Notes under the pieces: generated by a model
Told to the model about the DNA's origin: nothing
What the model saw: the letters and a program-made list of their open reading frames with translations, nothing else
Databases searched by the model: none
Part shown: one piece after another, positions 10,128 through 22,740 of the stretch
Numbering within the stretch: position 1 is the first letter of the stretch
How the letters are laid out: every line of letters starts with the position of its first letter
Position numbers and translations under genes: made by a program
DNA from: Planctomycetota bacterium
GTDB lineage: Bacteria > Planctomycetota > Phycisphaerae > Phycisphaerales > UBA1924
Assembly: GCA_018242645.1 (NCBI GenBank)
Contig: JAFEBN010000225.1
Span: 1-60,233, forward strand
Reading direction: 5' to 3'
DNA: 60,233 nucleotides

Positions 10128-10214
10128 TGAGAATCCCCGAGACGACGGAGTTGTCGGAATCGCAGTACGCTTCGCCCGGGAAGGAGTCCGGTCCGAAGGC
10201 AACGAGGCAGAACG

Positions 10215-10520
10215 ATGGCCGATCCGCTTGGTTTCATCTCCGGTTGTCAGCCCATCAGGCCGCAGGCGGCGCAAAGCACCCCTGCGCAGGCGAATTCGGG
10301 CCCGTCCTTTAAGGACGCCCTGATTGACAACATCAAGCGTGTGGACGAGCTCCAGCAGCAGGCCAACCGGGCGATGGAAGACATCGCGACGGGCAAGCGT
10401 GATGACCTGGAGGGCGTCATTCTCGCGACGCAGCAGGCCGATTCGGCCTTTCGCATGCTCCAGGCGGTCCGCAATCGCGTGATGGAAGCCTACGACGAAC
10501 TGAAGCAGACGCGCGTCTGA
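10215..10520 (+). CDS. fliE: Flagellar hook-basal body complex protein FliE
   Basis: 101 residues, typical for FliE, which joins the MS ring to the rod. The conserved C-terminal half is evident: FKDALIDNIKRVDELQQQA, then TQQADSAFRMLQAVRNRVMEAYDEL. The first 35 residues are low-complexity, as is common. The ATG at 10215 is chosen because the upstream frame has no other good start; the preceding AGG is a weak ribosome binding site. It lies between flgC and fliF, the usual place, with unusually long gaps on both sides (123 and 185 bases) that carry promoter-like sites. Confidence 0.92.
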   Translation: MADPLGFISGCQPIRPQAAQSTPAQANSGPSFKDALIDNIKRVDELQQQANRAMEDIATGKRDDLEGVILATQQADSAFRMLQAVRNRVMEAYDELKQTRV

Positions 10521-18869: not shown

Positions 18870-19351
18870 TGGCAATCACCGACCTGTTCCGCTCGCTTGC
18901 CTCCGCGATACTACCCCCGGGCGTGGAACGCCGCTCGGGTCAGTCGCCCACCGGCGCGATCGAGGGCCAGAGCTTCGCCGATCTGCTCGCTTCGGAAAAG
19001 AGCGGCAAGCTCTCGTCCGCACGGGGCGTCAACATCCGGCCGGAGGCCGGCGTCAAGCTCAGCCCCGAGCAGCTCGCCCGCATCGGCACCGCGATCGATA
19101 AAGCCGAAGCCGCCGGCGCGCAGAATGCCCTTGTCATGATCGACGGCATGGCGCTCAAGGTGAACGTCGGCGTGCGCCAGGTGGTCGAGCAGGTTGACAT
19201 GCAGAAGTCGGGTGTGATGACCGGCATCGACGCTGTCATTCCTGCGGGCGATCAAACCGGCGCCGACAGCAAGAAGTCGCTCCTCCCTTCCGTCGGATTC
19301 CACCCCAATCTGGCGAAGATCCTGCAGGGCAAAGACCAGGCCGCGGCCTGA
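18869..19351 (+). CDS. Flagellar operon protein, TIGR02530 type
   Basis: 160 residues. The middle section, VKLSPEQLARIGTAIDKAEA then NALVMIDGMALKVNVGVR, matches the pattern of the TIGR02530 flagellar operon family, which lies between flgD and flgE in many non-enteric bacteria. Its function is not established. There is no membrane segment or export signature beyond a flexible N-terminus, so it is probably cytoplasmic. The stop-start overlap with flgD (TAATG) implies coupled translation. Placement between the hook cap and the hook protein suggests a role in hook export or assembly. Confidence 0.75.
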   Translation: MAITDLFRSLASAILPPGVERRSGQSPTGAIEGQSFADLLASEKSGKLSSARGVNIRPEAGVKLSPEQLARIGTAIDKAEAAGAQNALVMIDGMALKVNVGVRQVVEQVDMQKSGVMTGIDAVIPAGDQTGADSKKSLLPSVGFHPNLAKILQGKDQAAA

Positions 19352-19360
19352 ACCAGACCC

Positions 19361-19382
19361 GCCCCGCTCCATGAGGCGGGGC
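19361..19382 (+). promoter_or_regulatory. Hairpin in the flgE upstream gap
   Basis: GCCCCGC and GCGGGGC form a perfect 7-base stem around an 8-base loop, 10 bases after the preceding stop codon. No T-run follows, so it is not a standard intrinsic terminator. It sits right before a second hairpin and may act in message processing or attenuation. Confidence 0.5.
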
Positions 19383-19383
19383 C

Positions 19384-19402
19384 ACGCGGGAGGATCCCGC
19401 GT
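19384..19402 (+). promoter_or_regulatory. flgE leader hairpin with GGA loop (CsrA-like site)
   Basis: ACGCGGGA and TCCCGCGT form a perfect 8-base stem around a GGA loop (19392-19394). The flgE ribosome binding site AAGGAA (19453-19458) gives a second GGA about 60 bases on. The stem length and loop are the same as in the fliF leader, though the stem sequence differs completely, which argues for function over descent. Confidence 0.5.
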
Positions 19403-19465
19403 CCGATTTGCTGATCCGATGGACGAACCGCGCGGAGCCGCGGCAAGGCCTCAAGGAATCCGCCC

Positions 19466-21250
19466 ATGGCCTCCACGACCGCTCTGTTCACCGGCCTGTC
19501 GGGACTCAACGCCAACTCTCGTCTCATTGACGTGATCGGCAACAACATCTCCAACGTCAACACGACCGCCTACAAGTCAAACCGCCTCCAGTTCAGCTCG
19601 ATGTTCAATCGCACGTTCAGCATCGGCAGCGCGCCGGGCGTGAACACGGGCGGCACCAACCCCGGGCAGGTGGGCCTGGGCGTGCAGGCCGCCGGCACCC
19701 AGCGCAACTTCCTGAACGGTGCGATCAACGCCACCGGTGACTCCCGGGATATGGCGATCGAAGGTGAAGGCTTCTTCGTCGTGCAGCGCGCCGGAGGCGA
19801 ACAGGTTTATACCCGGGCGGGTTCCTTCCGCCCCAACAGCTCCAACGAACTGGTCACCATGACCGGCGAGCGCCTGATGGGTTACGGCGTCGATGCGCGA
19901 TTCAACATCGACAAGTCGACGATCAGCCCCGTCTCGATCCCCCTTGGCGCGCTCACCATCGCCGAGCCGACCTCGCTCGCGACGCTCTCGGGCAATCTCA
20001 ACAAGAACGGCTCGCTCCCGACCCACGGCGCTTCGCTCACGCTCCAGGCAAGCTCGACCAACGCCTTCGGCGTTGTGACCGGTGCCAGCCCGGCTCCCGG
20101 CGCCGGCAACGTCGTTGAAACGACCACGCGCCTGGTCGATATCGACGACCCCGCCATCGCCGGCACCACGACCGCCCTGTTCTCCGCGGGCCAGACCATT
20201 CGATTCAGCGGCGCCCAGAAGGGCGTGACCTCGGTCAACGCGAAGAATCTGCCGGACGCATCGCTGCAGATCACCAGCACGACGACGATGCAGGACCTGA
20301 TGAACTTCCTGCAGAACGCCTATGGCATCGTGGGCGGGCAAACGAACCCCGACGGGGCAACGACCGGCATCACGCTCAACCCCGCGACCGGCGTGCTCTC
20401 GATCGTCGGCAACACGGGGACGATGAACGACATCACGTTCAATCCCGCCAATCTCAAGCTCGAGGATGCGAGCGGCAACCAGGTGCAGTCCGCGCTCTTC
20501 AGCGCCACCAAGAACGGCGCGGCCGACGGCGAGAGCGTCCGCACCAGCTTTGTCGCGTACGACTCGCTGGGAACGCCCGTCAACATCAACGTCGGGTTCA
20601 CGCTCGAATCCACGCCCGGCGGGACGGGCTCCAACTGGCGCTGGTACGCCGAATCCGGCAACCCGTACAACGGTTCGATCAACCTCGGATCCGGCGTCGT
20701 GAGCTTCGGCTCGACCGGCGCGCTGCTTACCAACACGCCGCTCTCGATCTCGGTTGATCGCACCGGCACCGGCGCCATCACGCCGCTCACGTTCAACATC
20801 TCGCTCTCGTCGGGCCAGGGCGGCGTGACCGCGTTTGCCAATAACAACGGCACCTCTTCGCTGCAGGCCCAGCAGGTCGACGGCGCCCCGATCGGCACGC
20901 TGCAGAGCTTTGCCGTCGGCGACGACGGAATCATCACCGGCGCATTCACCAACGGCCTCTCCCGCACGATGGGCCAGGTGGTGCTCGCGAAGTTCTCCAA
21001 CCCCGAGGGACTTGTCGACCTCGGGAACAATCTCTATCGCGTTGGTCCCAACAGCGGCACCGCCGGCATCGCCACGCCGCTTGACCTGGGGACCGGCAAG
21101 ATCGTGGGCGGGGCGCTGGAACTCTCCAACGTCGATCTCGGCTCGGAGTTCCTGGGTCTGATTCTGGCGCAGACGGGCTACTCGGCCTCAACCCGCGTGA
21201 TCCGAACGACCGACGACCTGTTCCAGCAGCTGCTGTCGCTGGGCCGCTAA
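19466..21250 (+). CDS. flgE: Flagellar hook protein FlgE
   Basis: 594 residues, longer than the enteric hook protein (about 400). The N-terminal signature is FTGLSGLNANSRLIDVIGNN with ISNVNTTAYKSNR; the C-terminal helix reads LGSEFLGLILAQTGYSASTR. The extra length lies in the central surface-exposed D1-D2 regions, which are rich in Thr, Ser, Gly and Asn (for example TLSGNLNKNGSLPTHGASLT). FlgE is exported and polymerises into the flexible hook. AAGGAA lies 7 bases before the ATG. The 114-base gap in front is rich in hairpins. Confidence 0.96.
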   Translation: MASTTALFTGLSGLNANSRLIDVIGNNISNVNTTAYKSNRLQFSSMFNRTFSIGSAPGVNTGGTNPGQVGLGVQAAGTQRNFLNGAINATGDSRDMAIEGEGFFVVQRAGGEQVYTRAGSFRPNSSNELVTMTGERLMGYGVDARFNIDKSTISPVSIPLGALTIAEPTSLATLSGNLNKNGSLPTHGASLTLQASSTNAFGVVTGASPAPGAGNVVETTTRLVDIDDPAIAGTTTALFSAGQTIRFSGAQKGVTSVNAKNLPDASLQITSTTTMQDLMNFLQNAYGIVGGQTNPDGATTGITLNPATGVLSIVGNTGTMNDITFNPANLKLEDASGNQVQSALFSATKNGAADGESVRTSFVAYDSLGTPVNINVGFTLESTPGGTGSNWRWYAESGNPYNGSINLGSGVVSFGSTGALLTNTPLSISVDRTGTGAITPLTFNISLSSGQGGVTAFANNNGTSSLQAQQVDGAPIGTLQSFAVGDDGIITGAFTNGLSRTMGQVVLAKFSNPEGLVDLGNNLYRVGPNSGTAGIATPLDLGTGKIVGGALELSNVDLGSEFLGLILAQTGYSASTRVIRTTDDLFQQLLSLGR

Positions 21251-21271
21251 GCCCCCTCCGGATTTCTGTCC

Positions 21272-21988
21272 ATGCCGATCTTTGCGATTCCGACCCTGCT
21301 CGCCCAAGTCGCCGAAAGCCCCGCCACGGCCGCCTGGCTTTTCGTGGGCTGTGCCGTTTCGTCGCTCCTCGCGCTCGCGCTGGTTCGCCTGCTCCGCCTC
21401 GACGCGCTCGCACGCGCCGTCCTGGCCCCGCAGCCATCCCGGGCTGAAATCGTGCAGCGCCTCGAGCAGCTCGCGCGTCACTCGGCTCGGCGTGACACCC
21501 GGGCGATCCGTCGCACCGGCGACACGTGCTCCTGGCGCCTCTTCCGCCGCGGCGCGGAGCTCCTGGCTCAGGGTGCGCAGCCCGCCGACATCGCTCACAA
21601 GCTGGAACACATCGCGCAGGTGCTCACGGCCCGAAAGTCGCGCCGGCTGAAGCGCATCAGCGCCTTCAGCTGCGGGCTCGTCGTTTTTCCGCTGTTCGTC
21701 GTGCTGACGCACGCGGCGGGAGCGATCGGCCTCGTACCAGCGACCAGCGAATGGGTCGCGGGCGCCGCGTTTGTCGGGGTCCTGGGCCTCTTGATCACCT
21801 CTTCGGTTGCACGGTGGCTCAGCGAGCGCGCCGAAGACGGGCTTGCGGCACGAACGCTCGAGACCGAGGCGCTCATCTTCGGCCTCTCCGCGATCTGCGG
21901 CGGCGCGGGGCCGGAAGAAGTCGGGTCCATGACTCGCCTTGTGCTGGGGATGGCCCCCGCAGAAACTGCGCTCCGCCGAGCCGCCTGA
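21272..21988 (+). CDS. Reduced MotA-like stator protein
   Basis: 238 residues. Segments align by eye with MotA: a cytoplasmic helix RRGAELLAQGAQPADIAHKLEHI (written here as the RRGAELL and PADIAHKLEHI blocks) like the MotA helix before TM3, then KRISAFSCGLVVFPLFVVL as TM3, AAFVGVLGLLITSSVARWL as TM4, and a tail ERAEDGLAARTLETEALIFG similar to the MotA C-terminus. Only three membrane segments are evident; the short TM2 of MotA seems to be missing, and no motB follows. It lies in the motA slot between flgE and fliL. It may be a divergent stator subunit or a non-torque relative. The homology needs a profile search to confirm. Confidence 0.55.
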   Translation: MPIFAIPTLLAQVAESPATAAWLFVGCAVSSLLALALVRLLRLDALARAVLAPQPSRAEIVQRLEQLARHSARRDTRAIRRTGDTCSWRLFRRGAELLAQGAQPADIAHKLEHIAQVLTARKSRRLKRISAFSCGLVVFPLFVVLTHAAGAIGLVPATSEWVAGAAFVGVLGLLITSSVARWLSERAEDGLAARTLETEALIFGLSAICGGAGPEEVGSMTRLVLGMAPAETALRRAA

Positions 21989-22090
21989 GCGTCCGAAAAC
22001 AACCGGGCGTCCAACTGTTCCAGCCCGAGGTCTCCCGGGTTCTCTCCCGTACACATCGCCGCTTGAGTCCGCGCCCGCTCGGGCCGAAAT

Positions 22091-22127
22091 CACCCTCCGA
22101 AGCCCGAAGGACCGGGCGCGGAGGGTG
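22091..22127 (+). promoter_or_regulatory. fliL leader hairpin hiding the ribosome binding site
   Basis: A two-part hairpin: a 9-base outer stem (CACCCTCCG with CGGAGGGTG), a small internal loop, a 5-base inner stem (GCCCG with CGGGC), and a hexaloop AAGGAC. The outer 3' arm contains the fliL ribosome binding site GGAGG (22120-22124), five bases before ATG 22130, so the fold would block translation. The loop carries ANGGA, the core CsrA-binding motif. Confidence 0.6.
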
Positions 22128-22129
22128 TC

Positions 22130-22666
22130 ATGGCCGACGAAAAGGACTCGAAAGCTCAGGGCGAGGCGGGGGCGCCAGCCAAGGGCGGCTTGCCGATCAA
22201 GACCATCGCGATTGTCGCCGTCCTCATGATCGTTGAGGCCGCGGCGGTGTTCTTCGTCGTGGGTTCCACCATGCGGAAGCCGGCGGAGTCCAAGGCCGGC
22301 GAACTCCATGGGGAAGAAGAAGCCAAGCTCGATGCGCTGGTCGAACTGCCCCTTGTCGAAGACAAGTTTCAGAACATGACCGGCGGGCAGGCATGGATCT
22401 GGGATGCCGCCGTGTATGTCAAGGTCAAGAAGCGCGACGAGGAGAAAGTCCTTGAGGTGCTCCAGGCCCGCTCGGCGGAGATCAAGCAGGGCATCGCGTA
22501 CATCTTCCGGCGCGCCCAGCACAGCCAGTTGAAGGAACCCGGTCTTGAGACGATGAACCGCGAAATCAGCGCGTACATCAACGAGATCGTGGAAAAGGCC
22601 CCGGACGGCACCAGCCGCATTGATCGGGTGCTGATTCCCAAGTGCCGCGGGTTCCCGGCGAGCTGA
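22130..22666 (+). CDS. fliL: Flagellar basal-body-associated protein FliL
   Basis: 178 residues with one membrane segment at about 25-46 (IAIVAVLMIVEAAAVFFVVG) and a periplasmic SPFH-like domain (WIWDAAVYVKVKKRDEEKVL, EIVEKAPDGTSRIDRVLIPK). FliL surrounds the stator units and raises motor output or aids surface sensing. A motA-like gene comes just before it; fliM, which often follows, is absent. The ribosome binding site is buried in a hairpin (22091-22127), so translation may be regulated. This is the last flagellar gene of the cluster. Confidence 0.88.
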   Translation: MADEKDSKAQGEAGAPAKGGLPIKTIAIVAVLMIVEAAAVFFVVGSTMRKPAESKAGELHGEEEAKLDALVELPLVEDKFQNMTGGQAWIWDAAVYVKVKKRDEEKVLEVLQARSAEIKQGIAYIFRRAQHSQLKEPGLETMNREISAYINEIVEKAPDGTSRIDRVLIPKCRGFPAS

Positions 22667-22740
22667 GCCGATTCTCTGAAACCGGACAGGGGTACTCTGG
22701 TATGCCACGCGTGGAGCGGGGCGGGCCGGAGGAGCTGTCT

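Follow-up and report, generated by a model that had tools for sequence, protein, structure and literature searches.

Comparison of fliL leaders within an uncultured genus of Phycisphaerales points to a CsrA-binding hairpin in the fliL leader, through which CsrA probably represses fliL until FliW strips CsrA away. From these sequence comparisons we infer the binding of CsrA, repression as its direction, and the control by FliW. The hairpin and its surroundings lie in the window, the 60,233-nt stretch of DNA analyzed here, and comprise the following features.

22063..22089, + strand: promoter-like block TTGAGT-N15-CCGAAA, its spacing fixed in a six-species clade of the genus; a possible promoter (leader comparison)
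22091..22127, + strand: whole fliL leader hairpin, made up of outer stem, inner stem, and hexaloop (sequence, folding)
22091..22099, + strand: outer stem 5' arm, CACCCTCCG, the anti-Shine-Dalgarno (anti-SD) strand; perfect in this species only (folding, shuffles)
22102..22106, + strand: inner stem 5' arm, GCCCG, kept across the clade (leader comparison)
22107..22112, + strand: hexaloop AAGGAC, class ANGGAN, the proposed CsrA site; A1, G3, G4, and A5 invariant in all six species
22113..22117, + strand: inner stem 3' arm, CGGGC (leader comparison)
22120..22124, + strand: SD sequence GGAGG within the outer stem 3' arm (sequence, folding)
22130..22666, + strand: fliL, encoding a divergent FliL-like protein of 178 aa (open reading frame and family searches)

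FliL was the best match of the protein in both Pfam (E = 0.0025) and NCBIfam (E = 1.3e-4), with both matches below the cut-offs, and 6 of 13 homologues matched Pfam FliL; the identification is thus subthreshold but consistent. The gene lies 3' of a fliE-fliF-fliG-fliH-fliI-fliJ-fliK-flgD-flgE cluster, for which gene order and partial matches supplied some of the names. An open reading frame 5' of fliL (21272 to 21988) showed weak MotA-like similarity and had no Pfam match. Directly after its stop codon lies a GTCCGAAAAC-like block (21991 to 22000) that most congeners and one further genus share in recognizable form.

Sequence inspection and folding confirmed the hairpin as the sequence-only reading had described it: a 9-base stem, in which CACCCTCCG (22091 to 22099) pairs with CGGAGGGTG (22119 to 22127), buries a GGAGG that is separated from the fliL ATG (22130) by a 5-nt spacer, and the hairpin is capped by the AAGGAC hexaloop. 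A small AA/G internal loop separates the outer and inner stems. The distance given for the two GGA motifs was also correct, as the loop GGA (22109) and the SD GGA (22120) are 11 nt apart from start to start, leaving 8 nt between them (9 in one relative). A 56-nt piece of the leader had a minimum free energy of -28.6 kcal/mol (z = -3.25), which was equaled by 1 of 200 shuffles, and ranked second by this measure among 80 gene starts taken from the window and one congener. The fliL SD is paired with P ~1.0 in this species; however, approximately 14% of the same 80 gene starts have an SD with a pairing probability above 0.95, so that burial of the SD is by itself not unusual. An Rfam search of positions 19300 to 22700 returned no match.

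The genus was sampled through eight genomes, those of this species and seven congeners, of which six species form one clade and two congeners are outgroups. Throughout the six-species clade, the leader directly 5' of fliL is GAAGCCCGATGGACCGGGCGCGGAGGGTGTC with small changes. The inner hairpin and SD block had a mean pairwise identity of 0.87 to 0.95 in the six species, compared with 0.13 to 0.68 for the remainder of the leader and 0.50 for the four-fold sites of fliL, indicating that the block is under selection. Around its invariant positions the loop reads A[T/A]GGAN in every species, with its bases unpaired at P >= 0.94 in all six, and the three changes observed are all at N2 (T to A, in this window) or N6 (C to A and C to T). 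RsmE-RNA structures leave exactly these positions of the ANGGAN loop free (PMC7652899). Covariation is nearly absent from the inner stem, where one G-C to G-U change was the only one seen over the clade; its conservation could therefore be partly at the DNA level. Two observations count against a CsrA-hairpin model: one clade member (G003) has lost a stem base, which leaves 4 bp in the stem and 7 nt in the loop, and the two more distant outgroup congeners lack the hairpin. By eye, no obvious common hairpin was found in fliL leaders of the family outside the genus; in these, another gene often ends directly upstream.

The outer stem behaved differently from the inner hairpin. In this species its 5' strand beat 99.8% of its own shuffles (2 of 1,000 as good), whereas in the five relatives the fractions of shuffles as good were 0.65, 0.18, 0.14, 0.15, and 0.07, and the outer stem was rejected as a clade-wide lock on the SD because none of the five was better than its shuffles. 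The expectation that relatives would share the stem and the GGA loop therefore held for the inner hairpin within the six-species clade and failed for the outer stem. On these comparisons, the inner ANGGAN hairpin is the part clearly beyond chance.

A second hairpin of the same loop class precedes fliE in the window.

10176..10191, + strand: ANGGAN hairpin of the fliE leader, CCGGG-AAGGAG-TCCGG; its stem covaries over six species
10215..10520, + strand: fliE-like gene 3' of this hairpin, named on the basis of its sequence and of its place between flgC and fliF

The hairpin ends 23 nt 5' of the fliE start codon. Its loop class is kept in all six clade members while its stem sequence has been rewritten, with five of the seven pairs in the six-species alignment changed on both sides. 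In that alignment 78.6% of cells were paired, compared with 64.6% after shuffling, and none of 500 shuffles reached the observed value; the structure was picked by eye on a MAFFT alignment, which somewhat favors it, and slid controls were far lower. As far as sequence can tell, the structural case is stronger for the fliE site than for the fliL site. This covarying hairpin, together with flagellin hairpins in relatives, takes the analysis beyond the sequence-only reading and provides the stronger evidence.

To place these loops among others, the 256 hexaloop classes were compared over 18 orthologous flagellar leaders, for which starts were placed automatically and all six species were present in 12 of the 18. 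ANGGAN alone recurred in at least four species, and this recurrence was confined to two of the 18 leaders, those of fliE and fliL. Over the whole cluster around fliL, coding sequence included, ANGGAN hairpins occurred at only about two-fold over the mean rate; a cluster-wide enrichment was discarded, as at about two-fold the class was not top-ranked and the signal was confined to leaders. The 256-class comparison could be reused for predicting CsrA regulons from genomes alone.

Across the genus, csrA was found in all eight genomes and fliW in seven, in an adjacent fliW-csrA-fliC order. In each of the seven congeners, canonical csrA occurs with fliW and adjoins tandem flagellin genes, and a CsrA-type hairpin lies over the fliC1 SD, an arrangement that would constitute a FliW-CsrA-flagellin circuit. 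The fliC1 hairpin, GCAATC-ACGGAG-GATTGC, is invariant in all seven, and hairpins like it were found outside the genus as well, in one further genus of the same family and one further family of the same order. The fliC3 leader forms, in five of the species, an ACGGAT hairpin in which the loop is invariant and the stem, as long as 10 bp, shows a C-G to U-A exchange; its shuffle control was suggestive (40 of 500). The flagellin clusters support CsrA independently of fliL: of the 256 classes, ANGGAN hairpins were the most numerous on the gene strand and came second there by rate, whereas the count put the class 70th on the opposite strand and 126th in background sequence; the counts are not independent events, since related species were pooled. 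Four tandem flagellin genes follow fliW-csrA in the congener clusters, several with ANGGAN hairpins, and three congeners have further ANGGAN hairpins between fliW and csrA.

The draft genome of this species (83% complete) contains a divergent csrA of 72 aa, so the gene on which a CsrA reading depends is present, and the canonical csrA and fliW of all seven congeners probably correspond here to a gap in the assembly. A search of the draft did not find fliW, and the 14-kb fliW-csrA-flagellin cluster of the congeners had no real DNA match in it. The flanks of that cluster map to contigs C192, where the match runs through the last base (19322), and C89, where it begins at base 149, and because these contigs end near the block, it most likely lies in the gap. 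Such a gap is expected for four tandem flagellin paralogues. The absence of fliW was accordingly rejected as a refutation of the CsrA reading, both flanks reaching or nearing contig ends. The divergent csrA (positions 1501 to 1719 of the extract, contig C247) is a second copy, kept by each of the eight genomes, and here lies 3' of an open reading frame judged by eye to be NifU-like (iron-sulfur scaffold).

In the mechanism we propose, a short GC stem would present the ANGGAN hexaloop approximately 18 to 23 nt before the fliL start codon, directly 5' of the SD, where a CsrA dimer would grip it with one RNA-binding face. The bulk of CsrA and the adjoining SD/anti-SD pairing would keep 30S subunits off fliL. 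The loop site falls inside the region that a 30S subunit is expected to cover during initiation, and CsrA on the loop should therefore compete with ribosome entry. Export of flagellin would free FliW, which would remove CsrA and end the repression of fliL. In this species, the extra and perfect 9-bp SD/anti-SD stem would give a closed state resembling that of the Pseudomonas psl leader. Within the genus, fliL would be one of several flagellar CsrA targets, alongside fliE and the flagellins.

The sequence-only reading had also invoked bridging of a loop GGA and an SD GGA by a CsrA dimer. In Escherichia coli glgC, an example of this type, a hairpin-loop site likewise lies just 5' of a GGA-containing SD (PMC7652899). 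For fliL bridging is disfavored: bridged sites are reported to be 10 to 63 nt apart (reviewed in PMC7652899), whereas only 8 nt lie between the GGAs of fliL, under the 10-nt minimum, and the SD GGA lies in a stem in this species, paired with P ~1. With so narrow a gap and the SD GGA paired, the closer model is psl of Pseudomonas aeruginosa, in which binding at a single site is combined with an SD/anti-SD stem. In the psl leader, RsmA bound in the loop stabilizes a hairpin that sequesters the SD (PMC7652899), and binding at fliL would similarly hold the SD closed; however, the psl hairpin is unstable without RsmA (PMC7652899), whereas that of fliL is very stable alone in this species and SD pairing is variable in relatives. 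Most SELEX-derived CsrA ligands have four or fewer contiguous base pairs (PMC7652899), and the combined inner and outer stems of fliL are much longer, a further point against a CsrA-hairpin model. The flaA leader of Campylobacter jejuni (PMC4894983) is also similar in having ANGGA hexaloop hairpins, one of which covers the ribosome binding site (as at fliC1 here), stems with compensatory changes, and FliW as a partner. It differs in phylum and in target genes, and its sites are 21 nt apart (PMC4894983), whereas at fliL there is a single loop site, and the SD GGA follows after 8 nt.

The promoter-like block just 5' of the hairpin bears on how much of the structure would be transcribed. As a promoter, it would make transcription begin close to the outer stem's 5' arm, and a start inside that arm would strip part of the outer stem from the mRNA; thus, the inner hairpin would stay in the message while part of the outer stem might not. 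As a general motif, TTGAGT-N15-YCGAAA was rejected, since away from fliL it was seen at roughly one copy per genome or fewer, a frequency close to that of the reversed-pattern control; it is thus either specific to fliL or due to chance elsewhere.

CsrA could instead act positively, with loop binding remodeling or protecting the leader and so raising fliL expression. There are precedents in ymdA, whose SD-sequestering hairpin is opened by CsrA, and flhDC, for which CsrA gives protection close to the 5' end (PMC7652899), and the fliL site may itself be near a 5' end if the upstream block is a promoter. We consider this unlikely, as binding in the loop is expected to stabilize the fliL hairpin and not to open it. 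Slightly less probable is that the conserved block is a DNA element whose RNA fold is incidental, either a promoter -10 region, given that GCCCGATGG resembles a sigma-28 -10 box, or a palindromic operator, GCCCG-N6-CGGGC. Conservation of the fliL block as primary sequence more than through covariation, and the promoter-like block at fixed spacing just 5' of it, would fit such an element. However, the CGAT core is broken in this species (CGAA) and in G003 (ATGG, after the deletion) although ANGGA is retained in both, the fliE and flagellin hairpins have loop class and pairing in common but not stem sequence, and the upstream block is already a better-placed promoter candidate. Least probable is a CsrA-independent switch in cis, in which the 9-bp SD/anti-SD stem alone serves this species as an RNA thermometer or constitutive damper, as its stability, its fully paired SD, and a 5' strand far above shuffles might suggest; the loop hairpin is conserved and the outer stem is not, -28.6 kcal/mol is probably too stable for melting at growth temperature, and SDs are buried in about 14% of genes anyway. 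The sequence-only reading had left fliL under either CsrA or a structural switch, and comparative evidence favors CsrA, while its emphasis on the buried SD was not sustained, given that the outer stem is not conserved.

The distribution of the putative target sites suggests that they were gained by lineage, as the fliC1 site was present in the seven congeners checked and the fliE and fliL sites in the six-species clade only. On balance, and by a small margin of confidence, we favor an extension of the FliW-CsrA circuit from late flagellins to fliE and fliL through lineage-specific gain of ANGGAN hairpins. As fliE encodes the rod adaptor and fliL a stator partner, flagellin export would, if this is true, feed back on the synthesis of basal body and stator partner besides that of the filament. 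The system appears to extend a known kind of regulation to a lineage new for it, fliL and fliE being candidate CsrA targets. What is established about CsrA-FliW control comes from Bacillus and Campylobacter. A literature search, mostly at the level of abstracts, found no study of a CsrA-FliW flagellar switch in this bacterial group and no report of fliL or fliE as CsrA targets; for Planctomycetes, the literature searched gave only a suggestion based on gene presence (PMC4682653). The sequence comparisons name the leaders of fliE, fliL, and several flagellins as concrete candidates in an uncultured genus and provide RNAs that are directly testable.
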